This document shows, piece by piece, positions 17,628-43,791 of a stretch of DNA of 45,371 bases. Location of the stretch: contig CALWDJ010000017.1 in NCBI GenBank assembly GCA_944376655.1, positions 1 to 45,371 of the forward strand, read 5' to 3'. How positions within the stretch are numbered: position 1 is the first letter of the stretch; every line of letters starts with the position of its first letter. The position numbers were made by a program, and so were the translations under genes. The stretch is from an uncultured Clostridia bacterium (lineage in GTDB: Bacteria > Bacillota > Clostridia > Oscillospirales > Acutalibacteraceae). The notes under the pieces were generated by a model that was not told where the DNA came from, searched no databases, and saw nothing but the letters and a program-made list of their open reading frames with translations.

Positions 17628-17645
17628 CGAAAGGCAGTGAAAGAA

Positions 17646-19154: not shown

Positions 19155-19173
19155 AAGGAAAGGGAGAGTTTAA

Positions 19174-19401
19174 ATGGAAAGAATAATAAAAGTACTCAAT
19201 GAGATAAACCCAACGGTAAACTGGGAGAAAGAAACCGACCTTATAGGAAACCGTATTCTCGATTCCCTCAGAATAGTCCAGCTGGTCGGGGCGCTCAATG
19301 ATGAATTTGATATAGAAATAACCCCGATGGACGTTGTGCCGGAGAACTTCCGCACCGCGGAGGATATCGCCCGGCTGGTCAGCAGACTTGAGGACGAATA
19401 G
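19174..19401 (+). CDS. DltC-like acyl/aminoacyl carrier protein
   Basis: A 75-residue carrier protein. The phosphopantetheine attachment site is Ser31 in ILDSLRIVQL, followed by the usual acidic helix EFDIEITPMDV and a C-terminal helix. GGGAGAG precedes its ATG. It is placed between the adenylation enzyme and the MBOAT protein, so it should carry the activated amino acid to the membrane. The gene order adenylation-carrier-MBOAT-SGNH differs from the Bacillus order dltA-B-C-D. Confidence 0.85.
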   Translation: MERIIKVLNEINPTVNWEKETDLIGNRILDSLRIVQLVGALNDEFDIEITPMDVVPENFRTAEDIARLVSRLEDE

Positions 19402-19412
19402 GAGGGCTTTGT

Positions 19413-20999: not shown

Positions 21000-21026
21000 G
21001 CTTTTATGCTATAAGGAGGGATAAAT

Positions 21027-27450: not shown

Positions 27451-27569
27451 AAAAAAGCGGCGGCCGCAAAAAGGCCGCCACTCAGTCTGTAAATAAACCT
27501 GAAACTGGATTTTTCTGCGGCGAAAAGCCGCGGTTGGATTTTCCGGCGACAGGTGCGTCGGAAAATCAG
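27451..27569 (-). terminator. Terminator and 3' hairpins of the ECF transporter operon
   Basis: Read leftward: a stem GATTTTCCG / CGGAAAATC overlapping the stop codon (27537-27545, 27559-27567), a second GCGGC / GCCGC hairpin (27517-27531), then the terminator proper GGCGGCC / GGCCGCC (27459-27465, 27473-27479) followed by GCTTTTTT. The first two probably shape the 3' untranslated region. Confidence 0.75.
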
Positions 27570-28288
27570 GCGAAAAGCCCGTATTTTGTTTTTACCCGGC
27601 AGAGAATTTTCAGTATCGGCTTTGCGCCGATGAGCAAAAATACAAAGGTTGCCGCCGCGTGCACCAGATCCATCGGCAGTCCCGCGGCGTATGCCGCCAG
27701 CAGCGCCTGCGGCGTTATTTCACCGGCGGCTATAAGCAGCGAGCCGGGGTTTACTGTTCCGCCGTATATGATAAGCGTCGCCGCCGCACCGTAAAGCGCG
27801 GGTATCACCGAAAGGGCGCGGCGCGGCACATAGTCACGCCTGAATATCAGACCGGAAATCAGACCCGTAAGCCCCAGCGCGAACATCTGCCACGGCGTCC
27901 ACGGACCCTGACCGAAATAAAAGTTCGAGACAAAGGCGGTAACAGCTCCGGTCAGAAAGCCGGTCTGCCCCCCGAAGGCTATGCCGGAGAGTATCACGAC
28001 GGCGGTCATCGGCTTGAACTGCGGCAGCCAGAAAAACGCCAGCCTGCCGCCTATCGCCACGGCGCACATCACCGCTATTATAACAAGCTCGCGCGGCTGC
28101 GGCTTTCTGCTTTCAAACGCCGCGAAAAAGGGCAGCATAAGATAAAGTATTATAAGCAGGCTTATTATGTAATATTTACGGCTGCCCGGGAAAAATTGGC
28201 CCGCCGCTATCGTGAGCGGAATGAGCAGAACTGCCGCGGCAGTGCTTATTACCGCGCCCCGTCCGTGTTTTCCTTTTGTTTCCTGCAA
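27566..28288 (-). CDS. ECF transporter substrate-binding (S) component
   Basis: A 240-residue protein with about six membrane helices, typical of an ECF S component. The block VMCAVAIGGRLAFFWLPQFK, then GFLTGAVTAFVSNFYFGQGPWTPWQMF, is characteristic of a clostridial group that I associate with corrinoid (CbrT-type) transport. Its gene overlaps the ATPase gene by 40 bases and shares the operon with EcfT and a DUF4430 lipoprotein. Because DUF4430 resembles the cobalamin-binding beta domain of transcobalamin and corrinoid proteins surround the operon, a corrinoid substrate is the best inference. No riboswitch is visible in front of this operon. Confidence 0.78.
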   Translation of the reverse strand: MQETKGKHGRGAVISTAAAVLLIPLTIAAGQFFPGSRKYYIISLLIILYLMLPFFAAFESRKPQPRELVIIAVMCAVAIGGRLAFFWLPQFKPMTAVVILSGIAFGGQTGFLTGAVTAFVSNFYFGQGPWTPWQMFALGLTGLISGLIFRRDYVPRRALSVIPALYGAAATLIIYGGTVNPGSLLIAAGEITPQALLAAYAAGLPMDLVHAAATFVFLLIGAKPILKILCRVKTKYGLFA

Positions 28289-29913
28289 AGATATACCACC
28301 TCGTCATTAGTGACCGCATTTTTAAAGAACCTGCGGGATATTCTGTTGGCCGCTGTCGTGTAAAAGCTGTTGCCGGCGAAAAATTCCCTCGCCTCGCCGC
28401 AGGCGGCGGCGGAGCCGGCGAAAACAAGGGCGCATATGTCGGCGTATTCTGCACAGAACTCAATATCGTGCGATACGGCTATCACTGTGGCGCCGTCTGA
28501 GCAAAGACTTTTAAGTATGTCCGCGAGCTCCTTTTTATACGCCGCGTCAAGTCCTTTTGTCGGTTCGTCAAGCAGAAGAATTTTCGGCTTTGTCATTATA
28601 AGCGCCGCGAGCGCCGCCCGCTGGCGCTCTCCTCCGCTTAAATCATAGGGGTGACGCTCAAGGAATTCACCGCAGCCGGTAATCCGCGCGGTTTTTTCCA
28701 TATCCTCAGCCGTAACACCGTGCGCTTTAGCCGCGGTCTCAAGCTCTTCCCTTACCGAGTTCGCGGTAAAAAGCGACATCGGGTTCTGCGGAAGCAGAGC
28801 CACCGTCTTCGGATATAGCTCGCTTTCCTTATATTTTTCTATTTTTTTACCAAACAGCCTTACGCTGCCGCGGTAGGGGGTGTTAAGCCCCGCCATAAGC
28901 GACAGCATGGTGGATTTTCCGGCGCCGTTCGCGCCTACCACGGCGAAAAAGCTGCCTTTCGGGACCGTAAGGTTAAGGTCTCTTAAAATATCGGGAGAGC
29001 TTTTCTCATATCTGAACCAGACGTCCTTAAGCTCTGCCGCCGGTTCGCTTTCGGGAAAGGGCTCGCGCTTGATTTCGCCGCCGCAGGTTACCACGCGGCT
29101 CAGGTATTCTATACCGTCCCTTACCGAAACCGGACATCTGCCGCCCAAATCAAGCGCCGAATATATACGCATAGCGGCCGGCATTGCCTCATACATACGG
29201 CTTCCGCTGCTTTTAAGAAGCTCTCCTACTTCCTGCGGAGAACCGTCGGCGGTCAGTCTTCCGTCTTCCATAACCGCCATACGGTCGGTATAGGGCAGTA
29301 TCTCCTCAAGACGGTGCTCTGAAAGTATAACCGTCGTGGCAAGCTCGCGGTTTATCCTTACAAGGGTCGAGAGAAAATCCGCCGCCGCTATCGGGTCAAG
29401 CTGCGCGGTCGGCTCGTCCAGCACCAGCACCTCGGGCGAGGTCGCCATTACCGAGGCGAGGTTTAAAAGCTGCTTTTGTCCGCCCGAGAGCGTGGAAATG
29501 TCACGCTCAAACCATTCGGTTATGCCGAAAAAGCTCGCCATTTCCGCCACTCTGCGGCGTATCACGCTGTTTTCAAAGCCAAGGCTTTCAAGGCTGAACG
29601 CCAGCTCGTGCCATACCTTGTCGGTCACTATCTGGCTGTCCGGGTCCTGAAACACAAAGCCGATTTCCTCGGCGAGCACCCTTTCGGCGGTTTTCTCAAG
29701 CGGGGTATTCTTGTAAAGCAGACTTCCGCTTCTTTCCCCGTGAGGGGTAACTGCCGGCTTGAAGTGGCGCAGCAGGGTGGTTTTTCCGCAGCCGGACGGA
29801 CCGCACAGCACAAGAAAATCCCCTCTCTTTACCGAAAGGGAAACGCTGTCCAGCGCTTTCCGCTTTTCACCGGGATACGCAAAGCTCAAATCCTTGATTT
29901 CAAATAGGACCAT
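28249..29913 (-). CDS. ecfA: ECF transporter ATPase, fused EcfA-EcfA'
   Basis: A 554-residue double ATPase. The first domain (about 1-250) has GPSGCGKTT, LSGGQKQ and VLDEPTAQLD; the second (about 295-530) has GANGAGKST, LSGGERQ and LLDEPTKGLD. Each ends in a switch His (SEHR, VSHD). Fusion of the two ECF ATPases is normal in this class of transporter. It binds EcfT and the S component and powers vitamin uptake. ATG 29913 is chosen for GGAGG upstream; the longer start at 29934 lacks it. It overlaps both neighbours, giving a tightly coupled operon. Confidence 0.92.
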   Translation of the reverse strand: MVLFEIKDLSFAYPGEKRKALDSVSLSVKRGDFLVLCGPSGCGKTTLLRHFKPAVTPHGERSGSLLYKNTPLEKTAERVLAEEIGFVFQDPDSQIVTDKVWHELAFSLESLGFENSVIRRRVAEMASFFGITEWFERDISTLSGGQKQLLNLASVMATSPEVLVLDEPTAQLDPIAAADFLSTLVRINRELATTVILSEHRLEEILPYTDRMAVMEDGRLTADGSPQEVGELLKSSGSRMYEAMPAAMRIYSALDLGGRCPVSVRDGIEYLSRVVTCGGEIKREPFPESEPAAELKDVWFRYEKSSPDILRDLNLTVPKGSFFAVVGANGAGKSTMLSLMAGLNTPYRGSVRLFGKKIEKYKESELYPKTVALLPQNPMSLFTANSVREELETAAKAHGVTAEDMEKTARITGCGEFLERHPYDLSGGERQRAALAALIMTKPKILLLDEPTKGLDAAYKKELADILKSLCSDGATVIAVSHDIEFCAEYADICALVFAGSAAACGEAREFFAGNSFYTTAANRISRRFFKNAVTNDEVVYLCRKQKENTDGAR

Positions 29914-30767
29914 TTTATTTCCTCCGTAACACACAGCGCCGCCGGAATATTCAGAAGCGCCGCGTAAAGGGTATAGGTTATTACGGCGTAAGGGCCGGTT
30001 TTAATGCCCGAAAAAAGCGGAAAATATGCGCTCCTCACGGCGCCTGTACCGGCTGCCGCCGCGGCGGCAGCGGTAAGTACGAGCATTACGGCAAGCACCG
30101 CGCCGTCTCTTGCCGTGAACCTGAAGCGTGAAAACGCCGTTCTGCCCGGCAGACCGTAGCCGCGGCATTTCATCGAGTCCGTCGTATCCGCCGCGTCCTC
30201 AAAGCTGCGCAGCAGCAGCGCGTATATCACCGTAAGGCCTCTTTTTATCCTGCCGTAAAGACCTGCCGGAGTTCCGTACGACAGGCGCTGTGCCTCATTT
30301 ATCTGTCTCGCCTTTGCCGCGACCTGCGGCACAAAGCGCAGTATCATCGAAAAAAGCAGCGAAAGTGAGGGTGAGACCTTAGCGAACAGGAACATAATCT
30401 TTTCCGATGTCATAATCCTACTGAAGCAGGCGAACCAGATTATAACGGTCATAAGCACAGTGCCCGAAACAGCTCCGTATATAACCGATTCAAGGGTTAT
30501 CGGGTTGCCGTTTAAATAAAGCAGCACCGTCGCCCCCTCGTGATTGAAGGCGGTGTTGACCGCCGCCGCCGCGGCTACCGCCGGAACCGAAAAAAGCAGG
30601 TAGCGTACAGCTTTTCTGCCGCTTATCACAAAAAGCAGAAGCAGCGCCGAAAAAAACGACACCGCGAGCATGACCGGCGAGGAGGAGATCATCGAAAAAG
30701 CAATGCAGACCGCGAAGAAAACAAAGCTCACCCACGGGTGCAGTGTGTCAAACGCCCTGCCCATCAT
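29886..30767 (-). CDS. ecfT: ECF transporter transmembrane (T) component
   Basis: A 293-residue EcfT with N-terminal and C-terminal membrane helices and the cytoplasmic coupling helices in the middle. The coupling motif with Arg-Gly is visible in TTDSMKCRGYGLPGR (about 195-209). It joins the ATPases to the S component. The gene overlaps the lipoprotein gene by four bases and the ATPase gene by 28, so all four proteins are made from one transcript. Dedicated (group I style) use with the neighbouring S component is likely. Confidence 0.88.
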   Translation of the reverse strand: MMGRAFDTLHPWVSFVFFAVCIAFSMISSSPVMLAVSFFSALLLLFVISGRKAVRYLLFSVPAVAAAAAVNTAFNHEGATVLLYLNGNPITLESVIYGAVSGTVLMTVIIWFACFSRIMTSEKIMFLFAKVSPSLSLLFSMILRFVPQVAAKARQINEAQRLSYGTPAGLYGRIKRGLTVIYALLLRSFEDAADTTDSMKCRGYGLPGRTAFSRFRFTARDGAVLAVMLVLTAAAAAAAGTGAVRSAYFPLFSGIKTGPYAVITYTLYAALLNIPAALCVTEEIKWSYLKSRI

Positions 30768-31276
30768 TCCTCACCGTAAATATTGCCTATGTCCTGCCCC
30801 AATTCGCAGGTGTAAAGCACACGTACCTCGTCCCCGTCATTCAGCTTTACGGCGTTTGCCCCCACCGTCGGGAACTCGCCGTTTACGCTGAACATCCAGC
30901 CCGAAAGCTCGCCGCAGTCAAACGCGTAAAGATTGGCTACACCTTCTATATACTTGCTGTCATACGCCGGAGTTGAATTGAATTCCATATGTATGCCCTT
31001 TTTTCGGGTTATGTCGGCAAGCAGGTCGAAAACCGTGTCGCCCTCCTCTATCGCCGCCTCGCATTCGGGCAGTATCACGCCGTCAGGCGGGATAATATCC
31101 TTTTTGTCGGGGTCGAGCATATCCATATTGTCAAGCACCGTTTTGCATTCTATCGTCACCGTGCAGGACGCCTGTCCTTCTTCGGGTGTCATGTCAGAGG
31201 AAACCTCACCCGGCAGCTCAACGCTGCAGCCGCAGAGAACAAAAAGCACCGCGATAAGCGGCAGGAGCCTTTTCAT
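30764..31276 (-). CDS. DUF4430 lipoprotein of the ECF operon
   Basis: A 170-residue lipoprotein. The signal peptide ends in a lipobox LCGC with acceptor Cys17. After an acidic linker, the DUF4430 domain (about 75-165) shows the hallmark SGWMFSVNGEFPTVGANAVKLNDGDEV and a final LYTCELGQDIG. DUF4430 resembles the beta domain of transcobalamin and intrinsic factor, which caps cobalamin. As first gene of an ECF operon it is a likely surface binding partner handing ligand to the S component, an unusual feature because ECF transporters normally need no separate binding protein. Promoter TTGACC-17-TAAAAT lies upstream. Confidence 0.83.
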   Translation of the reverse strand: MKRLLPLIAVLFVLCGCSVELPGEVSSDMTPEEGQASCTVTIECKTVLDNMDMLDPDKKDIIPPDGVILPECEAAIEEGDTVFDLLADITRKKGIHMEFNSTPAYDSKYIEGVANLYAFDCGELSGWMFSVNGEFPTVGANAVKLNDGDEVRVLYTCELGQDIGNIYGEE

Positions 31277-31520: not shown

Positions 31521-32072
31521 ATGGATAAAAAAGAAGAGTTTGTCAGCCGTATAACTGAGGAATACGGGGTAAACTGCGGCATCTGCGATGTAGATAAAAA
31601 GATTTTTCATTCCGAGCTGCGAGGGGCGTGCGAGGTGAATACTTGCGGAAATTTCGGTAAGTGCTATACCTGCCCGCCTTTTACGGGGGAGGCTGAGGAG
31701 TGCATAGAAAAAGCCTCATCATATAAAACGGTTATAGTCTATCAGAAAATTTACCCGCTTGAGGACAGCTATGATTTTTACGGCATGGTCGAGGCGGGCA
31801 AGGAATTTTACTCGGTTATACAGGAGGTCTCGGCGCTCGCGAAAGAAATGTTCAGGTCTCCCTTTGTTTTGGGCGCGGGAGGCTGCCGGCTGTGCGAAAG
31901 CTGCGCAGCGAAAACCGGCGAGCCCTGCCGGCATCCGGATAAAACCGTGGCGTCGCTTGAATCCTACTGTATTCAGGTGTCAGAGCTGGCCGCGCTCGCC
32001 GGAATGAAGTACATAAACGGGCAGAATACGGTGACGTATTTCGGCGGTATTTTTTTAGGTGAAGAGGAATAA
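31521..32072 (+). CDS. DUF2284 metal-binding protein
   Basis: A 183-residue protein of the DUF2284 family (predicted metal-binding). Cysteine motifs fit: ACEVNTCGNFGKCYTCPPFTG near residues 31-52 and CRLCESCAAKTGEPCRHP near 118-136. The family occurs in anaerobes and is often near corrinoid or methyl transfer genes; its biochemical role is not established. GGAAGGG precedes the ATG. It is the first gene of the rightward corrinoid-related group and stands alone, 128 bases before the corrinoid protein. Confidence 0.85.
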   Translation: MDKKEEFVSRITEEYGVNCGICDVDKKIFHSELRGACEVNTCGNFGKCYTCPPFTGEAEECIEKASSYKTVIVYQKIYPLEDSYDFYGMVEAGKEFYSVIQEVSALAKEMFRSPFVLGAGGCRLCESCAAKTGEPCRHPDKTVASLESYCIQVSELAALAGMKYINGQNTVTYFGGIFLGEEE

Positions 32073-32200
32073 AAGGCGGATGAAAAATACGGCGGATTAA
32101 AATAAAATACCAAAAACCAATATTTTTTGCAATATTTTTGAGCTTTTATCTGTTAAAATCAAAATCAAAATAAAGAAACTGATGAAAAGGAGTAATACAT

Positions 32201-32833
32201 ATGGCGATTTTAGACGAGATAAGCGAGTTTTTACAGAAGGGCAGAGCCCCGATAGTAAAGGAAAAGGTTCAGGCAGCTCTTGACGAGGGAATAAGCGCCA
32301 AGGACATTCTTGAAAAGGGTCTGCTTGCCGGAATGGGCGTTGTAGGCGAGAAGTTCAAGAACAACGAGGTTTTCGTTCCCGAGGTTCTTATCGCTGCCCG
32401 TGCCATGAATATGGGCGTTGCGGTTCTCAAGCCGTATCTTGCCGAGGACGGAGTCGAGTCAAAGGGCACCGCCGTTATCGGCACGGTCAAGGGCGACCTG
32501 CATGATATAGGAAAGAACCTTGTAAAGATGATGCTTGAGGGCAAGGGCATAAATGTTATCGACCTTGGCACCGACGTTGCCCCTGAGACCTTTGTTCAGG
32601 CGGCCATCGACAATAACGCCGATATTATCTGCTGCTCGGCGCTGCTCACCACCACAATGGGCGAGATGAAAAACGTTGTCGAGTGCGCCAAGGAAAAGGG
32701 CATACGCGACAAGGTAAAGATCATGGTAGGCGGAGCGCCTGTGACACAGAGCTTCTGCGACTCAATCGGCGCCGACTGCTATACCTCTGACGCGGCTTCC
32801 GCCGCCGACGCGGCGCTTGCGTTTTGCTCATAA
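32201..32833 (+). CDS. Corrinoid (cobalamin-binding) methyl carrier protein
   Basis: A 210-residue MtaC/MttC-type protein. The N-terminal four-helix cap (about 1-85, with ILEKGLLAGMGVVGEKF and FVPEVLIAARAMN) covers the methyl group. The Rossmann domain carries the cobalt ligand His101 in GDLHDIGKNL, then VIDLGTDVAPETF and MVGGAPVTQ. Such proteins shuttle a methyl group between a substrate methyltransferase and a second methyltransferase. AAAAGGAG and ATG are well placed. The likely partner is the UroD-family enzyme encoded at 33829. A substrate-specific partner gene is not adjacent. Confidence 0.93.
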   Translation: MAILDEISEFLQKGRAPIVKEKVQAALDEGISAKDILEKGLLAGMGVVGEKFKNNEVFVPEVLIAARAMNMGVAVLKPYLAEDGVESKGTAVIGTVKGDLHDIGKNLVKMMLEGKGINVIDLGTDVAPETFVQAAIDNNADIICCSALLTTTMGEMKNVVECAKEKGIRDKVKIMVGGAPVTQSFCDSIGADCYTSDAASAADAALAFCS

Positions 32834-32869
32834 AAACGAATAAAACGGCGCTTCCAGAAATTCGCCGGA

Positions 32870-32906
32870 AAAGTGCCCCGGATTTTTATTCGAGGCGCTT
32901 TTTTTA
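32870..32906 (+). terminator. Terminator after the corrinoid protein gene
   Basis: Stem AAAGTGCC / GGCGCTTT (32870-32877, 32894-32901, one G-T pair) followed by TTTT. An outer pairing CGAATAAAA / TTTTATTCG can also form, so the 3' end may be multi-branched. Confidence 0.65.
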
Positions 32907-32945
32907 TGCCGTAAAGGTAAAATTATCCTTTATGAGCAATAATTG

Positions 32946-32974
32946 TTGATTTATATGCCTTTTCAAGTTACAAT
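32946..32974 (+). promoter_or_regulatory. SigA-type promoter of the PocR-domain gene
   Basis: TTGATT (32946-32951), 17 bases, TACAAT (32969-32974), followed by an AT-rich start region and GGGAGG before the ATG. Confidence 0.6.
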
Positions 32975-33007
32975 ATAATATAATAATCAGTATCGGGAGG
33001 TGCCGTC

Positions 33008-33571
33008 ATGGCTTCGGAAAATAAAAAGGCGGAGTCGCTCTGCAAAAATATGAGCGGGCTGTGCGGCGCCTCCTGCGCGTTTCTGTCGCTTGAGCCGGAT
33101 ATTAAGCTCTCCTGCGTGGGGGAGGACTGGCTGTGCAGCAGGTACTGCGGCTGCGACTACTGCAATACCCTGCATTACGGCTGCATCGAGGCATACCGCT
33201 GGAACGGGAAATATGTGTTTTACTGCCCGAAGGGACTTGTGTTTATCGCCGCGTCGGTGGCTGACGAGCAGGGGAGCCTGTCGGGCGGAATGGTGCTGGG
33301 ACCGGTCGTGATGGGCGAGCCGGACGATACCATAGGTATGTTTGAAAACGCGGAATTCTGCAAAAGCGTGTCAGAGCTTCCGGTGTGGGACACGGCGAAG
33401 GTGCGCTACGCCGAGGAGATTTTGAGCGCGGTCGCGGCGTCGGTGTCGGTGCTGCTTTCACATAAGGCAATGGAGTACAGCGATGAAATCGCCGGCAAGG
33501 CGGTTACGCTTGAGCTGTCCACTTCTGAATTTTTTATGGATAATTACGTTGAGCATATGATGTTTATGTAG
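33008..33571 (+). CDS. Stand-alone PocR sensory-domain protein
   Basis: A 187-residue protein consisting of one PocR ligand-sensing domain: a Cys-rich start (CGASCAF, CSRYCGCDYCNTLHYGC) and the core EAYRWNGKYVFYCPKGLVFIAASV, then GGMVLGPVVMG. PocR regulates propanediol and cobalamin genes in enterics; in anaerobes the domain is often near corrinoid methyltransferases and fused to HTH or kinase modules. Here there is no output domain. It could bind a small substrate or act as a partner of the methyl transfer proteins. Confidence 0.75.
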   Translation: MASENKKAESLCKNMSGLCGASCAFLSLEPDIKLSCVGEDWLCSRYCGCDYCNTLHYGCIEAYRWNGKYVFYCPKGLVFIAASVADEQGSLSGGMVLGPVVMGEPDDTIGMFENAEFCKSVSELPVWDTAKVRYAEEILSAVAASVSVLLSHKAMEYSDEIAGKAVTLELSTSEFFMDNYVEHMMFM

Positions 33572-33598
33572 AAAAAGGTACGGAGGGGAGGCGTTATT

Positions 33599-33733
33599 AT
33601 GTTTTTTTCGGCTTGTGACGACAGCAGGAACAGCAAATGCTTTAAAATAACCTATTCGGTACAGACAAACGGTCTGCTTTTAAACGATGAATGGTGCGAG
33701 TTTTTAAAAAGCAGAAAACTTAAAAACATTTAA
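33599..33733 (+). pseudogene. Fragment of a radical-SAM anaerobic sulfatase-maturase-like gene
   Basis: A 44-codon frame with a strong ribosome site (GGAGGGGAGG). The segment KITYSVQTNGLLLNDEWCEFL matches the conserved QTNGTLLDDEW region of anaerobic sulfatase-maturating radical SAM enzymes. Neither the CxxxCxxC cluster motif nor the rest of the roughly 370-residue enzyme is present. It is therefore a decayed remnant, or a tiny new peptide that happens to keep translation signals. Confidence 0.6.
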
Positions 33734-33828
33734 ACATTTTCCTAAAAAGAAAAAAATATTGCAAGACTTTTCCGGCACGGTGATGTATAATTCCGTCATA
33801 AAGTAAAAAAAGAAACGGAGATGACGGT

Positions 33829-34836
33829 ATGAATATGAAGAAATGGGCGGCGGACTTGCTCGCTGCCGACAAAAAGCTACCAATGCCGGTGCTTTCCTTC
33901 CCGTCGGTCACGCTGCTCGGAATAGGCGTAAAGGAGCTTATTTCCGACCCGGAGCTTCAGGCGAAGGGCATGAAAGCCGTCGCCGACCGCAACAGGGCTT
34001 CTGCTTCGGTCAGCATGATGGATCTTTCGGTAGAGGCTGAGGCGTTCGGCTCGGTGATAAGGGTTTCGGACGATGAGGTGCCGACCGTAATCGGGGCGAT
34101 AGCCTCAGACGAGGAAGAGGCAAAGGCGCTTAAGGTTCCTGAAATCGGCGCCGGAAGAACAGGACTTTACATAAAGGCGATCGAAAAGGCGGCGCAGCTC
34201 ATAACCGACCGTCCGGTGCTTGCCGGTATAATCGGACCTTTCTCACTTACGGGCCGTCTTATCGATGTGAACGAAGCGATGATAAAGTGCTATGAGGAAC
34301 CTGAAATGGTGCACACCGTGCTGGAAAAAACCACTCAGTTCCTTATAGAATACGCGAAAGCCTACAAGTCGGCAGGAGCGAACGGCATAGTAATAGCCGA
34401 GCCGCTCGCGGGGCTTCTCTCGCCCGACCTTACCGAGGAGTTTTCGGAGCCTTACGTAAAGCGCATAGTCGATGCCGTGCAGGACGATGAGTTCGCGGTC
34501 GTGTACCATAACTGCGGCGACTGCACGATAAGACAGATTGACTCGATTTTAAGAACAGGCGCGCTCGCTTACCACTTCGGCAACTCGATAGATATGTCTG
34601 AAATGATGAAGCACATACCGGCCGGTGTGCTGGCGATGGGCAACGTTGACCCCGCCGCGCAATTCAGGAACGGTACGCCTGAATCTATTAAGGCGGAAAC
34701 CAAGCGCATAATGGGCGAATGCTGCAGGTACCCGAATTTTGTCATCTCGTCGGGCTGCGATATTCCGCCTATGAGCCCGTGGGAGAATATCGACGCTTTC
34801 TTTGAGGCGGCGGCTGAATTCTACGGCGATAAATAA
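33829..34836 (+). CDS. UroD-family methyltransferase (MtaA/MtbA-like)
   Basis: A 335-residue TIM-barrel protein of the uroporphyrinogen decarboxylase/cobalamin-independent methionine synthase superfamily. Zinc ligands of the methyltransferase subgroup are present: His227 and Cys229 in YHNCGDC and Cys310 in SSGCDIPP. True UroD enzymes lack this H-x-C...C set, so this is a corrinoid-linked methyltransferase like MtaA, MtbA or the bacterial O-demethylase enzymes. It lies in the same group as the corrinoid protein and PocR domain. A perfect -10 TATAAT is at 33786-33791. Methyl donor and acceptor are unknown. The cobalamin riboswitch begins 20 bases after its stop. Confidence 0.88.
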   Translation: MNMKKWAADLLAADKKLPMPVLSFPSVTLLGIGVKELISDPELQAKGMKAVADRNRASASVSMMDLSVEAEAFGSVIRVSDDEVPTVIGAIASDEEEAKALKVPEIGAGRTGLYIKAIEKAAQLITDRPVLAGIIGPFSLTGRLIDVNEAMIKCYEEPEMVHTVLEKTTQFLIEYAKAYKSAGANGIVIAEPLAGLLSPDLTEEFSEPYVKRIVDAVQDDEFAVVYHNCGDCTIRQIDSILRTGALAYHFGNSIDMSEMMKHIPAGVLAMGNVDPAAQFRNGTPESIKAETKRIMGECCRYPNFVISSGCDIPPMSPWENIDAFFEAAAEFYGDK

Positions 34837-34857
34837 AATCAAATAAGAAGATAGTAA

Positions 34858-35026
34858 AGTACGGTTCTGCGGGCGCTGCCCGTAAGATTAAAAGGGAATC
34901 CGGTCGGAATCCGGAACAACCGCCATTACTGTATCTGACGCAAGAGAGCGTATGCCATTGGATTTTTCCGAGAAGGCGGCTCTGCCCGTTAAGACGGGTT
35001 CACAAGTCAGGAGACCTGCCGTATTT
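34858..35026 (+). promoter_or_regulatory. Cobalamin riboswitch (aptamer)
   Basis: A cobalamin aptamer on the plus strand. Conserved elements appear in order: AAAAGGGAATCCGGT (34891 on), CCGGAACAACCGCCATTACTGT, GACGCAAGAGAGCG and GCCATTGG, and the complete B12 box AGTCAGGAGACCTGCC (35005-35020). The closing stem pairs TACGG (34860-34864) with CCGTA (35019-35023). It controls the genes from 35186 onward. I see nothing anomalous in the conserved core. Confidence 0.95.
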
Positions 35027-35052
35027 TTTAAGGTTCACACAGCTTTGGTGAG

Positions 35053-35167
35053 AAGAGTGCAGCCGTTTATCAGCACGGAATACAGGTCTGCGGTACAGCC
35101 GCGCTCTGTACGCTTTTTCGTGCCGGTTTATGCTGCACTCTTTCCGGAAAACGGAAAGAGTTTTTTT
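35053..35167 (+). terminator. Riboswitch expression platform: antiterminator and terminator
   Basis: Terminator: CTCTTTCCG / CGGAAAGAG (35138-35146, 35152-35160) with loop GAAAA and seven T. Competing pairing: AAGAGTGCAGC (35053-35063) with GCTGCACTCTT (35132-35142), 11 perfect pairs that take up the left terminator arm. Without ligand the long pairing lets transcription continue; with cobalamin bound the terminator should form and switch the downstream genes off. Confidence 0.88.
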
Positions 35168-35185
35168 ATTTTTGAGAGGGAAAAG

Positions 35186-35389
35186 ATGAACGGAGAAAAG
35201 AAAGAATGGGCGGTTGAGAGGCTGAAAGAAAAAAGCCGCGAGACCGGAAGACTTCCTAAAAAGGAAGATTTCGACCCGGTCACGCTTTCACGGATAAAGG
35301 CGTTTCTGGGACCGTGGCCGAGAGCGCTTGAGGCGGCGGGCTTAAAGGAGCGTAAAACCGCCGCAAGAGGCGGAAAAAAGAGGAAATAA
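35186..35389 (+). CDS. Small homing-endonuclease-associated-repeat protein
   Basis: A 67-residue basic protein with one copy of the HNH/homing-endonuclease-associated repeat: RLKEKSRETGRLPKKEDF, then LSRIKAFLGPWPRALEAAGL, with a Lys/Arg-rich tail. The repeat is a small helical DNA-binding unit. ATG 35186 has GAGAGGGA upstream; a longer frame starting at 34952 would run through the riboswitch and terminator and is rejected. It is the first gene behind the cobalamin riboswitch. A role in regulating the corrinoid genes is possible, but this is inference. Confidence 0.75.
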   Translation: MNGEKKEWAVERLKEKSRETGRLPKKEDFDPVTLSRIKAFLGPWPRALEAAGLKERKTAARGGKKRK

Positions 35390-35446
35390 CCGGTAAAACC
35401 GGATAATTTCATAATACAGCAAAGATTTATAAAAGGAGTTTTCAGA

Positions 35447-36322
35447 ATGAAAATCAGAAAAACATTTGCGGCGGCTGTAATAGCGGCGCTGCTGCTTAAC
35501 CTTTTCGGAACCGGCGTTTTCGCCGCTGACGATGCCCTTTCGGCAAACGTCTTTATGACGGTTGCGAACGGTGAGCTTCTGCTGGCGCAGGAGCCGGTAG
35601 AGGTGACCGATTACAATTCGGACGGCAAGCTGACGATTGACGACGCGCTTTACGCCGCCCACGAGCAGTATTATGAGGGCGGAGCCGAAGCCGGATACGG
35701 CACTGAATACGGTCAGTACGGACTGTCAATAACAAAGCTCTGGGGCGCCGAAAACGGCAGCGGATTTGGATATTATGTAAACAACGTTTCTGCGTATTCT
35801 CTCACGGACAAGATGGAGGACGGTGATTATCTTACCGCTTTTGTGTATACCGATACGTTAAATTATTCTGATACCTATTGTTATTTTGATAAAAACACCG
35901 TAAGCGCCAAGGCGGGTGAAGAAGTAACCCTTACCCTTTCGGCGGCAGGCTATGACGACCAGTGGAACCCGATAACGGTTCCGGCCGAAAACGCCGAAAT
36001 AACGGTAAACGGAGTTAAGACGGGCTTAAAGACCGATAAGGAAGGCAAGGTAACCTTAAAGCTCGATACGGCGGGAGCACTTGTTATAAGCGCTGTGTCA
36101 GAGGATACGGTTCTTGTGCCGCCGGTATGCAGGGCGTCGGTTTCCGCGGCAGAGACCGACGGCGCCAACAATAACACCTCCGAGGACGAAAAAGACGATA
36201 CGCCGAAATCACCTGTTACGGGCGAAAACAATACCGCCGCGTCGGTCGCGGTACTTTCAGCGGCAATGCTCGCGGTGATATGCCTTGCGGTTCTTACCCT
36301 CAGAAAGAGCTATGAAAAATAA
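35447..36322 (+). CDS. Surface protein with DUF4430/transcobalamin-beta-like domain and sortase signal
   Basis: A 291-residue exported protein. A signal peptide (1-27, ending VFAAD) is followed by an EF-hand/dockerin-like loop DYNSDGKLTIDD (55-66). Next is a DUF4430-like domain (about 92-148) with SGFGYYVNNVSAYSLTDKMEDGDYL, laid out like SGWMFSVNGEFP...LNDGDEV in the ECF-operon lipoprotein. An Ig-like region follows (about 150-235). The end has SPVTG (255-259), a hydrophobic span and RKSYEK, a sortase sorting signal of the (S/N)PxTG kind. It is under cobalamin riboswitch control, so it likely binds corrinoids at the wall. RBS AAGGAG is strong. Confidence 0.8.
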   Translation: MKIRKTFAAAVIAALLLNLFGTGVFAADDALSANVFMTVANGELLLAQEPVEVTDYNSDGKLTIDDALYAAHEQYYEGGAEAGYGTEYGQYGLSITKLWGAENGSGFGYYVNNVSAYSLTDKMEDGDYLTAFVYTDTLNYSDTYCYFDKNTVSAKAGEEVTLTLSAAGYDDQWNPITVPAENAEITVNGVKTGLKTDKEGKVTLKLDTAGALVISAVSEDTVLVPPVCRASVSAAETDGANNNTSEDEKDDTPKSPVTGENNTAASVAVLSAAMLAVICLAVLTLRKSYEK

Positions 36323-37649
36323 TATTATTTTACGTCTTTTTACAGCGGTAGCAGCGGTGATGCTACTCTGTACGGCGGTTCCTGTCTCGGCGGCTGAAAT
36401 CACCGCTGAGGCAGCGGCACAGGATATAATCGAATATAATCTCAAAAAATCCGGAGCGGGGAGTATTCAGCAGTGGCTTGACGGGAATTTAAGCGATACG
36501 GCGGGCTCGTCTGAGGGGTACGTGATGGCGCTTAAAAAATACGCGCCCTCGCTTGACTATTCGGGCTGCGCCGACGCGTTTGCCGCTTATTCGGAAAGCG
36601 ATAATTTCACATCGGCGGCGGCTTCACGCCAGAAAACCGCGCTTGCCCTTATAGCCTGCGGCAGAAAAAGCGGAGGATATCTTGATACCGCTCTTGACGA
36701 TACCGTAGGTAAACAGGGGCTGATGACCTATGTCTATGGTCTTCACCTTATAAATAACGGCATACCCGGCGGTGAGAAGAAAGCCACGCAGACCGTGAAG
36801 ATCCTGCTTGAGCGGCAGCTTTCGGACGGCGGCTGGGCGCTTGTCGGAAAAAACGGCGATGTGGATATAACCGCTATGACGCTTCAGGCGCTCGCTCCGT
36901 ATTACGGGAAAAGCGCCGCGGTAAAAAAGGCGGCGGACTCGGCGCTCGGCTTTTTAAGCCGCAACCAGCAGTCTGACGGCGGATACAAAAGCTACGGCAC
37001 GGAAACCTCTGAAAGCGCGTCGCAGACCGCGGTGGCACTATGCGCTCTCGGAATAGACGTTTTTTCCGACAGCAGGTTTATAAAAAACGGTAATACCGTA
37101 ATTGACGGGATACTTAAATTCCGGCTTGACGACGGCAGCTTCTGCCACAAAACGGGCGAGGGAACCAACAGCATGGCGACTGAACAGGCTTTCGCCGCTT
37201 TTACGGCAGTGATAAAGGGCGGGAATATAATGCTTTTCGGCGGCTCGGCTCCGGCGCTTGACGAGTCGGCGCTAACATCGGACAGCTCTGTTTCGTCCGG
37301 TACGCAGGGGGGCGGTACGGCGGAAAAGCCGTCCGGCGGCTCGTCTGAGGCTTCAGACAAGGAAAACACGGTCTCGTCCGGGTCATCTTCCGCCTCGGGA
37401 GACGGCAGTTCTGTGCAGAGCGGCTCGGTCAGCCAGTCAGACAGCTCTGAAAACGGAGCTCCGGGTGAGGGGACCGACAGCCCGTACAGTCCGGAAGACT
37501 CTTCGTCGGAAACGTCCGGCGGGTCCGGTGTATCATCTGGACCCGATGCGGAAAAAGGCTTTCCGGCCGCGGCGGCGGTAATAATAATCGTGCTGGCGGC
37601 CGGAGCGGCGGCAGCGCTTGTAATACTTAAAGTAAAGCATAAAATATAA
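36312..37649 (+). CDS. Membrane-anchored alpha/alpha-barrel protein, transcobalamin-alpha-like
   Basis: A 445-residue exported protein: signal peptide (1-27), an all-helical domain (about 28-320) and a Ser/Gly-rich linker (about 325-415), then a C-terminal membrane helix (about 420-440) with a basic tail. The helical domain has prenyltransferase/squalene-cyclase type repeats: QLSDGGWALVG, then QQSDGGYKSYG, then RLDDGSFCHKTGEG, with DITAMTLQALAPY, ASQTAVALCALG and MATEQAFAAFTAV. That is the fold of the alpha domain of intrinsic factor and transcobalamin. It overlaps the preceding beta-domain gene by 11 bases. Alone it could be any alpha/alpha-barrel protein; with its partner and riboswitch, corrinoid binding is the best reading. 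Confidence 0.75.
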   Translation: MKNNIILRLFTAVAAVMLLCTAVPVSAAEITAEAAAQDIIEYNLKKSGAGSIQQWLDGNLSDTAGSSEGYVMALKKYAPSLDYSGCADAFAAYSESDNFTSAAASRQKTALALIACGRKSGGYLDTALDDTVGKQGLMTYVYGLHLINNGIPGGEKKATQTVKILLERQLSDGGWALVGKNGDVDITAMTLQALAPYYGKSAAVKKAADSALGFLSRNQQSDGGYKSYGTETSESASQTAVALCALGIDVFSDSRFIKNGNTVIDGILKFRLDDGSFCHKTGEGTNSMATEQAFAAFTAVIKGGNIMLFGGSAPALDESALTSDSSVSSGTQGGGTAEKPSGGSSEASDKENTVSSGSSSASGDGSSVQSGSVSQSDSSENGAPGEGTDSPYSPEDSSSETSGGSGVSSGPDAEKGFPAAAAVIIIVLAAGAAAALVILKVKHKI

Positions 37650-38366: not shown

Positions 38367-39293
38367 GTGATTTATCTGAATAATATTGCAGCGGTAGTTG
38401 TTACCTATAACAGATTGAATATGTTGCAAAAATGTTTAAGCGCCATAAAAAATCAGACAGTCGGCTGTGACATTATTATCATCAACAATAATTCATCTGA
38501 CGGTACTGAAGAATGGGTTAAAGATAATATAATTTCCGAAAGCGGCATTATTTACCGCAATACACATCAAAACATCGGCGGTTCAGGCGGTTTCAATACC
38601 GGAATGCGTATAGCTGTTGAAAAGGGTTACGAGTATGTCTGGATAATGGATGACGATTGCATACCCTGCTTAGACGCCCTCGAAACGCTTATAAAAGCGG
38701 GAGAGATAATAGGCAGAGGAAATTTCGGCTACCTTTCAAGCGTAGTGCTTTGGAAGGACGGAACCGAATGTAAAATGAACCGTCAGAAAATCAAGAAAAC
38801 ATATTACAATTACTCACACTTGCTGAAGCACGGAATAATACAGGTCGAACAGTCGACGTTTGTTTCGCTTCTTTTCAGCAGTGAAGTAATAAAGAATGTC
38901 GGTCTTCCGGTAAAGGAGTTCTTTATCTGGGGAGATGACATTGAGTACACCAGAAGAATAGCCGTAAGAAACGGCATACCGTCATTTATGGTTTGCGGCA
39001 GTCAGGTTGTGCATGAGATGGCAAAAAACAACGGCAGTAATATTGTTATTGACGGGCTTGATCGCATAGGCAGATATAAATTCACCTTTAGAAATGAGTC
39101 TTATCTTTACCGCAAAGAGGGTGTCAAAGGTGCGCTTTTTTACTTTGCAAAATGCGGAGTTTACTTTTTCCGAATACTTTTCAAATCTCCCAACTATAAA
39201 CTCAAACGTCTGGGCGTGCTCATAGGAAGTATGATAAAGGGAATATTCTTCAATCCGAAAATCGAGTATATTCAAGAGGATAAAAATGGATAA
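38367..39293 (+). CDS. GlfT2-like family 2 glycosyltransferase
   Basis: A 308-residue GT-A glycosyltransferase. Motifs are VVVTYNRLNMLQKCL at the start, HQNIGGSGGFNTGM, the metal site MDDDC and WGDDIEYTRR, a pattern shared with galactofuranosyl- and rhamnosyltransferases of the GlfT2 group. No membrane span; a basic C-terminus suggests membrane association. The start is uncertain: GTG 38367 has AGGGA only three bases away, while AGGTGA suits a CTG codon at 38376. It overlaps the next gene by eight bases and leads the wall polymer operon. Confidence 0.85.
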   Translation: MIYLNNIAAVVVTYNRLNMLQKCLSAIKNQTVGCDIIIINNNSSDGTEEWVKDNIISESGIIYRNTHQNIGGSGGFNTGMRIAVEKGYEYVWIMDDDCIPCLDALETLIKAGEIIGRGNFGYLSSVVLWKDGTECKMNRQKIKKTYYNYSHLLKHGIIQVEQSTFVSLLFSSEVIKNVGLPVKEFFIWGDDIEYTRRIAVRNGIPSFMVCGSQVVHEMAKNNGSNIVIDGLDRIGRYKFTFRNESYLYRKEGVKGALFYFAKCGVYFFRILFKSPNYKLKRLGVLIGSMIKGIFFNPKIEYIQEDKNG

Positions 39294-40290
39294 AATATCA
39301 ATAATAATTCCTGTTTATAATGTTGAAAGCTATATTGACCGATGTATGGAGTCTATACTTGCTCAAGATTATGAAAATATAGAGGTTTTGCTTGTTGATG
39401 ACGGATCAAACGACAACAGCGGGTATCTATGCGACAAATACGCGCAAAAGGACAACCGCGTAAAGTCATTTCACAAACCAAACGGCGGCGTCAGCAGCGC
39501 AAGAAATTTCGGAATAGCACACGCGGAGGGTAAATATATTTCTTTTGTTGACCCGGACGACTGGCTTGAAAGGGATACCTACAAAAATATTATTGAGAAA
39601 TTTGACGAAAATACAGACGCGGTTTTTTTCAGTTACTATGAGGATTTCGATGACAGCGAAAGAATAGAGCACAATCCGGTAAAAAGCGGAAAAGTAAGCT
39701 CGAAAGAAGCGTTGTTCAATTGCCTTATAGGTATGGGGTACGGATATTTTACTTCTGTATGGAACAAGGTCTTCAGAAAATCGGCGCTGGACAGAACCGG
39801 AGTGGAGTTTGAAAAGTATTCAATAGCCGAGGACGAGTTGTGGCTTACAAAAGTTTTGAACAATTTCGGTGATGTTTATCTTCTGCCTGAAAAATATTAC
39901 CATTGGTATCAAAGGCAGGGAAGCGCGTTAAGAGCGGGGCATTTTAAAAAGTGGTATTCTGCGTTGGAAGCCAAAAAGCTGGTTGCTGATTGCCTGAAAG
40001 GTCAGGACAGGCTTTATGATCTGGCGTGTGCAAAGCTCTATGATAATACATTTGATATAGCTTGGCAGGCGTATGCCGCCGGGGATAAGGAAACATACCG
40101 GTTTATGAAAAGCAGCGTCGCAGGGTATAAAAACTATTTTATTAGAAATGAAAATTTCTCAAGATTCAAAAAGCTTCGTTTTTTTGTACTGGGAACGATT
40201 ACATTTTTGAATCTGCCGGAACGGTTTGTAGGGGCGGTCGGAAAAATAAACCGATACAGGATAAAGAAGATTATAGGTAAAAAGCCATGA
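39286..40290 (+). CDS. Family 2 glycosyltransferase
   Basis: A 334-residue GT2 enzyme. The GT-A fold is shown by ISIIIPVYNVESYIDRCM, LLVDDGSNDNSGYLCD, KPNGGVSSARNFG and the catalytic metal motif VDPDDW. A later AEDELW is the usual acceptor-side motif. Overlap with the preceding gene indicates co-translation. It likely adds one sugar of a wall polymer repeat. Donor and acceptor are not readable. Confidence 0.88.
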   Translation: MDKISIIIPVYNVESYIDRCMESILAQDYENIEVLLVDDGSNDNSGYLCDKYAQKDNRVKSFHKPNGGVSSARNFGIAHAEGKYISFVDPDDWLERDTYKNIIEKFDENTDAVFFSYYEDFDDSERIEHNPVKSGKVSSKEALFNCLIGMGYGYFTSVWNKVFRKSALDRTGVEFEKYSIAEDELWLTKVLNNFGDVYLLPEKYYHWYQRQGSALRAGHFKKWYSALEAKKLVADCLKGQDRLYDLACAKLYDNTFDIAWQAYAAGDKETYRFMKSSVAGYKNYFIRNENFSRFKKLRFFVLGTITFLNLPERFVGAVGKINRYRIKKIIGKKP

Positions 40291-40325
40291 ATTGAAAAAG
40301 CAGAATATTTTTCGAGGGTGAGAAA

Positions 40326-43016
40326 GTGGGAAGTAAATATAAATTTTCGGTAGTAATGCCGGTTTACAATGTTGAATTGTTTGTCAGAGAATCTATTGAA
40401 AGCGTTTTAAATCAGGATATAGGAATTGAAAACATACAGCTTATTTTGGTCAATGACGGTTCTAAGGATTCGAGCGGTGAAATATGCAAGGGTTATGCCG
40501 AAAAGTATCCTGAAAACTGTTTGTATGTGGAAAAGGAAAACGGCGGTGTTTCGTCCGCAAGAAATTTAGGGCTGGATTATGTTCAGGGAGAGCTTGTCAG
40601 CTTTTTGGACTCGGATGATAAACTGTCGCCGAACGCCTTTTCCGCCGTTTATGATTTTTACCGCGTCAATAAATACAATGTTGATATAATCGCGATTCCC
40701 ATGTATTTTTTTGACGGACAGACAGGGGAACATATTTTAAATTACAAATTCAAGAAAACAAGGGTAATTGATTTGGACTCTGAGTGGCAGAACCCGCAGC
40801 TCAGTCTGTCAAGTGCGTTTGTGAAAAGCGCCTGCCTTGCGGAGTTAAGATTTGATACAAGGCTTAAATACGCGGAGGACGCACAGCTTATTCTGAAAAT
40901 CCTTTCAGATAAACACCGACTCGGAGTAGTTTGCGAAGCTGCTTATTTATATCGTAAGCGTTCTGCGGGCGAGGCCTCTGCGATTCAGTCAGGCACAACC
41001 AAAAAAGCTTGGTATATAGACTATATGCTGTATTTTACACACTATATAATTTCGTATTATACCGAAAATTACGGATATGTTCCTCTGTTTGTTCAAAACA
41101 CGCTTATGTACGACCTTCAGTGGAGATTTAAGCTGCTTAAAATTCCTGACGGGGTTTTAAGCAAAAATGAGAAAGATGAATATTTCAATCTGCTGCATGG
41201 CGCGATGCAGTATATTGATGAAATTGTAATTTTGAATCAAAAAAATTTAGGCAGGGAAAACAAGATTTATTTGCTCAAGCAGAAAAGAGGCAATGATTTT
41301 AAGATATCCCGTTTGGCGGACGATATCGGTATTGTGTCGAACGATAAAATGGTAATCAAGGCGTCCTCTTTTCCCAACAAGGTAGAATTCATTTCAGTTA
41401 AAGACAATGTTTTGTTTTTGGAGGGCCGGTTTACTCCTCTTTATGATTTGGAGGGCGGTTTTAAACTTACCGCCGTTTACAATGATAAAAGCTATATAGC
41501 CGATTTAAGGATACAGCATACAGAAACTGCGGACTACGGCAGGCTTTATGAAAGGTATTCATACAGACTTGAAATTCCACTTAACAAAGATATAAAGGAA
41601 AAAGAGGTAATCCTGTTTTTCACTGAAACTCAAGGCATGAAAATACCGCTTACGGAATTGAGCGAGGGTAAGTTTCTGCCGGTTTGCAAAAAATATATAA
41701 ATTCTCACTGCAGACTGGGGGATTATATAATACAGCTGAAAAGTAACGCAGTTGAGATACAGCCATACGCCAAGGAAAAAGCCAAAGCCTTAGAGAAAAG
41801 CTTTTTAAAGGAACTTTGGGAAACAAACGGAGCAGCCGAAAAAAAGGCAGTAATTGCAAGAAAAATTGTACGCTTAATAAATAAAATAAAGCTCAGACCC
41901 ATATGGATTATTTCTGACAGAACCTTAAAAGCCGGGGATAACGGCGAAGCTTTTTTCAGATATATGGTTAAAAATCACAAGAATATAAATTCTTATTTTG
42001 TTTTAGGCGGTCAGAGCGGCGATTATAAAAAAATCAAAAAAATCGGCAAGGTTATAAAAAAGGATTCGTTTAAGCATAAGCTTTTGCTTTTGTGCAGCGA
42101 TTATATTATCTCAAGTCACGGAGAGGACGATATATTTAATCCCTTTATCGGATACAGCGACCCTTACAGGGATGTGCTGAGCGGCAGAAAATTCATATTT
42201 CTTCAGCATGGCATAACACAAAACGATATGTCAGGCTGGCTTTGCAAATATAACAAAAATTTCTACGGTTTTGTGACTGCTGCCAATCCCGAATACGCTT
42301 CAATTGCCGATGAAAAATCCGGATATTTTTATGACAGGGAAAATGTATGGCTTGTTGGATTTCCGAGGTTTGACAGGTTAACCGACTCGGAAAAGAAGCA
42401 GATAACAATTATGCCCACCTGGCGAAAATATTTAATGACCGAATACGAAAGGGAAACCGGACGCTGGACGTTATCGCTTAATTTTAAAAAGAGCAAATAT
42501 TTCAACTTCTATAACAGTCTTATAAATCACCCGAAGCTTCTTGCGGCAGCGGATAAATACGGATATAAAATTGCATTTTTTCCGCATCCTACTATGCAGA
42601 GCCATATGGATATTTTCACAAAAAATAATAAGGTTGAATTTTTATCTCCGTATTCGGAATACAGAGAAATTTATTCATCAAGCAGCCTTGTGTTATCCGA
42701 TTATTCCTCTGCGGTGTTTGATTTCGGCTATTTAAAGAAGCCTGTCATATATACTCAGTTTGATAAGGAACAGTTCTTTTCCGGTGAACATGTGTGTAGA
42801 AAGGGATACTTTGATTATGAGCGCGACGGCTTTGGTGAAGTTGAATATGATTTGGAAAGCACGGTTGACCGTATTATAGAATATATGGAAAACGGCTGCA
42901 AAATGAAGGAAGTCTATAAGAAGCGCGTAGATGAATTTTTCGCCTTCAATGATAAAAACAACTGTGAGAGATTATATCAAAGAATAACCGAACTGGAGAA
43001 AATCAGACAATGCTGA
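40326..43016 (+). CDS. Bifunctional GT2 glycosyltransferase / TagF-like CDP-glycerol (polyol-phosphate) transferase
   Basis: An 896-residue fusion. Residues 1 to about 300 are a GT2 domain (VVMPVYNVELFVRESI, LVNDGSKDSSGE, NGGVSSARNLG, FLDSDDK). A middle region (about 350-460) looks like the beta-rich TagF-linked module. Residues about 520-890 are a CDP-glycerol glycerophosphotransferase domain with FLQHGITQNDMSG, FPRFDR, FFPHPTMQSH and VLSDYSSAVFDFGYLKKPVIY. The protein would glycosylate and add polyol-phosphate to a teichoic-acid-like chain. GTG 40326 follows GAGGGTGAG. It overlaps the exporter permease gene by seven bases. Confidence 0.9.
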   Translation: MGSKYKFSVVMPVYNVELFVRESIESVLNQDIGIENIQLILVNDGSKDSSGEICKGYAEKYPENCLYVEKENGGVSSARNLGLDYVQGELVSFLDSDDKLSPNAFSAVYDFYRVNKYNVDIIAIPMYFFDGQTGEHILNYKFKKTRVIDLDSEWQNPQLSLSSAFVKSACLAELRFDTRLKYAEDAQLILKILSDKHRLGVVCEAAYLYRKRSAGEASAIQSGTTKKAWYIDYMLYFTHYIISYYTENYGYVPLFVQNTLMYDLQWRFKLLKIPDGVLSKNEKDEYFNLLHGAMQYIDEIVILNQKNLGRENKIYLLKQKRGNDFKISRLADDIGIVSNDKMVIKASSFPNKVEFISVKDNVLFLEGRFTPLYDLEGGFKLTAVYNDKSYIADLRIQHTETADYGRLYERYSYRLEIPLNKDIKEKEVILFFTETQGMKIPLTELSEGKFLPVCKKYINSHCRLGDYIIQLKSNAVEIQPYAKEKAKALEKSFLKELWETNGAAEKKAVIARKIVRLINKIKLRPIWIISDRTLKAGDNGEAFFRYMVKNHKNINSYFVLGGQSGDYKKIKKIGKVIKKDSFKHKLLLLCSDYIISSHGEDDIFNPFIGYSDPYRDVLSGRKFIFLQHGITQNDMSGWLCKYNKNFYGFVTAANPEYASIADEKSGYFYDRENVWLVGFPRFDRLTDSEKKQITIMPTWRKYLMTEYERETGRWTLSLNFKKSKYFNFYNSLINHPKLLAAADKYGYKIAFFPHPTMQSHMDIFTKNNKVEFLSPYSEYREIYSSSSLVLSDYSSAVFDFGYLKKPVIYTQFDKEQFFSGEHVCRKGYFDYERDGFGEVEYDLESTVDRIIEYMENGCKMKEVYKKRVDEFFAFNDKNNCERLYQRITELEKIRQC

Positions 43017-43777: not shown

Positions 43778-43791
43778 CGGAGGAATGATTT

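Follow-up and report, generated by a model that had tools for sequence, protein, structure and literature searches.

Cobamide carriers and importers related to the locus

The described systems closest to the locus treated here are the animal vitamin B12 carriers, the energy-coupling factor (ECF) transporter ECF-CbrT, and the BtuG and BtuH proteins of Bacteroides. The locus lies in a stretch of 45,371 nucleotides, hereafter the window (assembly GCA_944376655.1, contig CALWDJ010000017.1, positions 1 to 45,371), from the 2.0 Mb genome, 96% complete, of an uncultured Clostridia bacterium of the family Acutalibacteraceae. It consists of a cobalamin riboswitch followed by the genes for two exported and anchored proteins, here named beta1 and alpha, and, on the opposite strand, of the genes for a DUF4430 lipoprotein, here named beta2, and an ECF transporter.

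In transcobalamin, haptocorrin, and intrinsic factor a DUF4430-type beta domain comes after an alpha/alpha toroid, an order shared by fused relatives of the window proteins; according to PMC4350170, TCN proteins end in a DUF4430 domain. Unlike the animal carriers, the bacterial system is anchored to the membrane or the wall, has beta1 as an extra protein, and is genetically linked to a riboswitch and to an ECF importer. In addition, its two domains are separated by two transmembrane helices in the relatives, and are encoded by separate genes in the window. ECF-CbrT of Lactobacillus delbrueckii (6FNP), which transports cobalamin and cobinamide (PMC5997447), is the best PDB sequence match of the substrate-specific component (EcfS) of the window. 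In contrast to ECF-CbrT, the bacterial system has dedicated EcfT and EcfAA' subunits in its operon, and surface proteins are not mentioned in the parts of PMC5997447 that deal with CbrT, although a cbrS gene, named once in the CbrT cluster, could be accessory. BtuG and BtuH likewise bind corrinoids in an accessory role in gut bacteria, with their genes in loci for B12 uptake, and BtuG is surface-associated, but BtuG is a beta-propeller working with the outer-membrane protein BtuB, and both fold and cell envelope differ (PMC8941943, PMC6977713; the latter reviews BtuG together with an ECF-type transporter). Cobamide capture by Firmicutes is described as less known (PMC8941943). In a search of literature titles and abstracts, with preprints and most subscription journals outside its coverage, no bacterial transcobalamin-like corrinoid system was found.

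The locus combines a riboswitch and its attenuator, a conserved gene set, a two-domain resemblance to transcobalamin, and a CbrT-like S component. It is very probably a riboswitch-repressed corrinoid scavenging system, in which alpha and beta2 would act as the clamp, beta1 as an extra capture protein, and a CbrT-like transporter as the importer. An earlier note on this DNA had proposed a two-part corrinoid trap made of beta1 and alpha. The span that it gave was right yet too narrow, as relatives have the PF14478 lipoprotein and the ECF genes, which lie at 27566-31276 on the minus strand of the window, in one operon with the other genes. The finding is larger than the earlier proposal and somewhat different from it, and a known carrier architecture is now placed in bacteria. 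The main parts are as follows:

34845..35037, plus strand: cobalamin riboswitch aptamer, RF00174 (89 bits against a gathering threshold of 31.5, E 8.2e-21)
35447..36322, plus strand: beta1, with signal peptide, transcobalamin-beta/DUF4430-like domain, immunoglobulin (Ig)-like domain, and a sortase-like SPVTG motif with transmembrane anchor
36312..37649, plus strand: alpha, with signal peptide, alpha/alpha-toroid repeats, Ser-rich linker, and C-terminal transmembrane anchor
30764..31276, minus strand: beta2, DUF4430 (transcobalamin beta-type) lipoprotein (PF14478, E 8.5e-19)
29886..30767, minus strand: EcfT (CbiQ-type) transmembrane subunit (PF02361, E 3.2e-11)
28249..29934, minus strand: fused EcfA-EcfA' ATPase (TIGR04520 over the cut-off in two stretches)
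27566..28288, minus strand: EcfS, CbrT-like substrate-specific component (PF07155, E 9.3e-12)

A two-domain fold resembling the B12 carriers

Pfam and NCBIfam miss beta1 as a DUF4430 protein and leave alpha below the cut-off, and therefore family profiles and structure models were used. One model is that of a fused protein from a relative (L125), which in its best alpha segment shares 44% identity with the alpha of the window. It was predicted with AlphaFold2 from 60 homologues, with a predicted local distance difference test score (pLDDT) of 92.4 and a predicted template modelling score (pTM) of 0.65. Foldseek, run against 350,542 PDB chains, filled ranks 1-15 with no chains other than those of transcobalamin, haptocorrin, and intrinsic factor, in alignments spanning both domains over 484-532 columns (E 4.4e-8 to 4.1e-6, identity 11-15%). 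The isolated transcobalamin beta domain was found at rank 24, with a target template modelling score (TMt) of 0.75. By these matches of the model, the two-domain architecture of intrinsic factor and transcobalamin, which the earlier note had suggested, is well supported.

The alpha of the window itself matches Prenyltrans at E 2.3e-4, under the Pfam cut-off, and the profile of its family finds squalene-hopene cyclase in the PDB at E 8.8e-18. Pfam, the family profile, and the model of the 44%-identical fused relative thus all point to an alpha/alpha toroid and, together with the C-terminal transmembrane helix, they bear out the prenyltransferase-type toroid with membrane anchor described earlier. 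Searches of the PDB sequences with the profiles of alpha, the fused protein, and beta returned terpene cyclases or nothing significant, with no B12 carrier among them, and beta2 alone had no meaningful PDB sequence match. The resemblance to the carriers is visible by fold alone, as modelled, and not by sequence profile. Domain order also varies in the alpha family, since in two relatives, L057 and L079, the DUF4430 domain lies N-terminal to the toroid in chains of 1597 and 729 amino acids, respectively.

Carrier-type domains in one chain and in separate genes

The conservation of the gene set was followed in two samples. In the first, 200 genomes of the family were searched, which yielded alpha in 55, beta1 in 11, and either or both in 57; 40 stretches were drawn from these 57 genomes. 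The second, the named loci, holds the best 80 of 530 confirmed stretches from a contig scan with alpha, and leans to proteins resembling the alpha of the window because only these 80 were kept.

In many of the 40 stretches the system forms a single operon, composed of the riboswitch, often an HNH_repeat gene, beta1 or a DUF4430 protein, and then alpha or an alpha-DUF4430 fusion, followed by the DUF4430 lipoprotein, ecfT, ecfAA', and ecfS. Among the named loci, 79 of 80 encode alpha and DUF4430 in a single chain, and the remaining one (L164) runs off its contig. The beta1 gene stands just upstream of alpha in 72 of the 80 (60 of the 63 having more than 3 kb upstream), and the 61 loci having more than 4.5 kb downstream include 58 with ecfT and 57 with ecfS. 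Six fused chains, read by eye, show the order toroid, linker, transmembrane helix, short basic loop, transmembrane helix, and DUF4430. Since two transmembrane helices lie between them, toroid and DUF4430 are expected on one side of the membrane, the outer one provided that the signal peptide functions. Of 391 genomes in the class, 143 match the fused-protein profile (E 1e-10 or better) through one of the domains or through the two together, a count in which toroid-only matches could include other toroid proteins. The gene set is also present, among others, in records named Ruminococcus flavefaciens Y1, MC2020, MA2007, and Pseudoruminococcus massiliensis.

In the window, no DUF4430 domain follows the toroid in the same chain; it is encoded instead by the separate gene at 30764-31276. 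With 68.2 bits against a cut-off of 23.8, beta2 is the sole Pfam-level DUF4430 domain, outside the span of the earlier note, and it matches positions 430-562 of the fused-protein profile at E 6.7e-45. Given the fusion and the single operon in relatives, the window appears as a rearranged version of the system, best read as a carrier split into a one-transmembrane-helix alpha and a DUF4430 lipoprotein, 5 kb apart and on opposite strands.

The beta1 protein and the partner of alpha

The beta1 protein had been described earlier as DUF4430-like, which holds as a resemblance but not as a family call. Its AlphaFold2 model (pLDDT 87.9, pTM 0.74) consists of a first domain, an Ig-like domain, and a transmembrane helix. 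The first domain matches the isolated human transcobalamin beta domain (5no0) at rank 3 of the Foldseek search (TMt 0.60, E 6.1e-4), the highest TMt among the 50 rows listed, the others being mostly Ig-like or Rib-type. A homologue from Pseudoruminococcus massiliensis bridges both groups, as it belongs to the beta1 family and passes PF14478 (E 1.4e-8), and a profile-profile comparison, set against set, gave a weak match (probability 53%). The resemblance of beta1 to DUF4430 comes from the model, the bridging homologue, and this weak match, as PF14478 is absent among its Pfam matches up to E 1. When the beta1 alignment was compared with the single lipoprotein, signal peptides alone were matched.

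The same protein had been credited with a sortase signal. An xPxTG motif occurs within the last 55 residues of 37 of the 72 beta homologues and the genome of the window has two sortase genes, but the motif of the window itself, SPVTG, is not the canonical LPXTG. Judging from these motifs and genes, sortase anchoring of beta1 is plausible.

The position of beta1 suggests another arrangement, in which beta1 and alpha would form the clamp together and the DUF4430 lipoprotein would serve the ECF transporter separately. The two genes are separate and overlapping, as had been reported, with an overlap of 11 nucleotides; they are also adjacent in most of the named loci, and the first domain of beta1 matches the transcobalamin beta domain. 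However, beta1 has an Ig-like domain and an anchor of its own, and the domain fused to alpha in the 79 loci is of the beta2 type, not beta1, which makes this arrangement unlikely. Because of that fusion, the clamp partner of alpha is likely to be the beta2 lipoprotein, to which the fused domain corresponds, rather than beta1, which would be an additional beta-like part. The earlier pairing of beta1 with alpha is not upheld, nor is a trap of two parts, since the system also has beta2 and an ECF importer.

The cobalamin riboswitch and its position in relatives

The cobalamin riboswitch that the earlier note had placed at the head of these genes passes the RF00174 gathering threshold by a wide margin (89 against 31.5 bits), and is the single match in a search covering the whole genome. 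The sequence past the aptamer contains an attenuator and a first small gene:

35053..35142, plus strand: antiterminator-like helix, 35053-35063 pairing with 35132-35142 (RNA fold -59.7 kcal/mol, z -3.58)
35137..35161, plus strand: intrinsic terminator hairpin of 10 pairs with a T tail, overlapping the antiterminator
35186..35389, plus strand: HNH_repeat mini-protein of 67 amino acids, first gene past the riboswitch (PF18780, E 2e-9)

Bases 35137-35142 are common to the antiterminator helix and the terminator, so the two structures are predicted to be mutually exclusive, which may allow ligand-dependent switching of transcription. A terminator-like hairpin lies within 260 nucleotides after 57 of the 67 riboswitches found by profile in the named loci, compared to 29 of 335 windows placed at random in these loci, a rough control in which the windows are mostly coding. 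These riboswitches were found with a sequence profile trained on that family, at E up to 0.01, and some of them are weak.

The link to corrinoids was read from the position of the riboswitch. Across the 57 genomes, 42 of 47 riboswitches are followed on their own strand, at no more than 12 kb, by alpha, beta1, or DUF4430, while about 0.45 would be expected from uniform placement in a mean genome of 2.2 Mb; this count speaks to position, because possession of alpha or beta was the criterion for including a genome. Thirty of the 47 lie upstream of alpha itself and 18 upstream of ecfS. The remaining five include two upstream of ecfS and one directly before an alpha seen only by the family profile (L086). 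As a negative control, lists compared by eye, none of the sortase matches listed lay within 12 kb downstream of a riboswitch on the same strand. Counted independently of alpha, 31 of 83 strong ecfS matches (in 81 of the 200 genomes) are preceded by a riboswitch at no more than 15 kb, where 0.26 would be expected; two ecfS matches above 100 bits were left out, one with an internal stop (G016:C11) and one a fragment (G048:C22). Among the named loci, a riboswitch stands upstream in 54 of the 63 having more than 3 kb on that side. Such pairs do not occur mostly without a corrinoid link, an outcome that would have spoken against the earlier proposal.

The HNH_repeat gene is present in 27 of the 80 named loci, in all of them as the first tracked gene after a riboswitch. 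Three loci (L101, L104, L105) have two riboswitches, one before beta1-alpha and a second one before an HNH_repeat gene that precedes ecfT, an arrangement that would fit a separate control of the two halves.

The ECF transporter

Among 177,635 PDB sequences, the best match of EcfS is 6fnp_A (ECF-CbrT), at E 2.5e-9, with the next match at 0.051; this membrane chain of 182 residues is taken as CbrT because of its length. Pfam and NCBIfam offer only riboflavin-type, folate-type, or generic S-component families for EcfS, those of NCBIfam below the cut-off. Among solved structures the S component is thus nearest to CbrT, and ecfT and ecfAA' are adjacent to its gene, so that the ECF transporter of the window is apparently a putative cobalamin transporter. 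With this match and the position of the riboswitch in relatives, the B12 link of the system, already proposed in the earlier note, is well supported by sequence comparison.

Evidence against a corrinoid carrier and alternative roles

A number of results weigh against the proposed system. The two-domain superposition of the fused model on the carriers has a root-mean-square deviation of 23.6-25.7 Å, with a query template modelling score (TMq) of 0.24-0.36 and a TMt of 0.30-0.43, which would mean that the domains are the same and in the same order, in a different relative orientation in this apo model; the toroid by itself may be as near to terpene cyclases, which align to it from rank 16 on, as to transcobalamin. 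Of 68 alpha matches, 35 have no RF00174 upstream and 33 do. Twelve of the alpha loci lacking it were searched within short flanks with the whole of Rfam at a lax threshold, giving nothing in nine and, in three, sub-threshold matches of the cobalamin clan, of the adenosylcobalamin (AdoCbl) type. Riboswitch presence per genome, counted with stricter filters that lose weak riboswitches, is not enriched, with 38 of 57 alpha- or beta-positive genomes against 88 of 143 without them (the latter derived by subtraction from 126 of 200 genomes with a riboswitch), and two genomes of the same genus (G066, G180) have the riboswitch and lack alpha. Finally, the RF00174 search detected no riboswitch ahead of the ECF and lipoprotein half of the window.

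Alternatively, the surface proteins could have another ligand, co-regulated with corrinoids, such as a corrinoid-carrying glycan or protein, and the ECF transporter alone could handle the corrinoid. Toroids and Ig-like folds occur in many unrelated proteins and alpha chains vary widely in length and architecture among relatives, as might be expected in that case. The match of both domains to B12 carriers at ranks 1-15, taken together with the riboswitch linkage, argues against it and leaves this role quite improbable. In terpene cyclases the DXDD motif is catalytic. That alpha is an exported enzyme of this kind, with an incidental riboswitch, is hardly credible despite the squalene-hopene cyclase-type enzymes among the best PDB sequence matches of its family, because all 60 relatives have V, A, or I in place of the last Asp of DXDD (the two preceding Asp positions being kept in 59 and 60), while signal peptide and anchor put alpha outside the cell and its operon contains B12 transporter genes.

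Neighbouring genes

The two halves of the system are separated by a corrinoid-using gene cluster (31521..34836, plus strand), assigned by family searches:

31521-32072, plus strand: DUF2284 protein
32201-32833, plus strand: corrinoid protein
33008-33571, plus strand: PocR-domain protein
33829-34836, plus strand: MtaA/URO-D-type methyltransferase

The protein with the PocR sensory domain has 187 amino acids, with no DNA-binding family called in its open reading frame, and is followed by a gap of 257 nucleotides; it is possibly a truncated regulator. CbiD, the one marker of anaerobic or de novo corrin synthesis that was searched for, was not found in the genome, in which corrinoid methyltransferase-type genes are present. 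Further away, 17637-21995 resembles what we take to be a D-alanylation (dlt) operon, with an AMP-ligase, an MBOAT protein, and a DltD-like reading frame, and the region downstream of alpha (38367-44751) presumably encodes glycosyltransferase-like proteins and, after them, a pair of polysaccharide exporter proteins of the ABC-2 type.

Proposed mechanism and significance

In the proposed corrinoid scavenging system, corrinoid binding, the clamp of alpha and beta2, and the order of hand-over are what we infer from the parts. When corrinoid is scarce in the cytoplasm, the riboswitch would let transcription proceed into beta1 and alpha. Outside the membrane, at its surface, a corrinoid would then be clasped by the alpha toroid on one side and beta2 on the other, in the fashion of transcobalamin, while beta1, in the wall or the membrane, may serve as a further beta-type capture or relay domain. 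The ligand would pass to the CbrT-like S component and be imported by EcfT and EcfAA' in an ATP-driven manner, and the imported corrinoid may feed the neighbouring corrinoid methyltransferase cluster.

Judging from its genes, the system appears to be a route, so far undescribed, by which Gram-positive gut bacteria take hold of B12. A function would thereby be assigned to DUF4430, and the plan of the animal B12 carriers would be seen in bacteria as well. The system also gives a concrete gene set for the surface capture of cobamides by Gram-positive bacteria, a process that PMC8941943 presents as poorly known, and would bear on the competition for B12 between microbes and host. A broader proposal, for and against which the case is evenly balanced, is that surface corrinoid carriers of the transcobalamin plan, made of a toroid and DUF4430 in one chain or in two, along with further beta domains, and feeding ECF importers, are widespread and undescribed in Clostridia, and descend from a two-domain ancestor shared with the animal carriers. 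If this is true, bacteria in the gut where intrinsic factor acts have their own counterparts of it.

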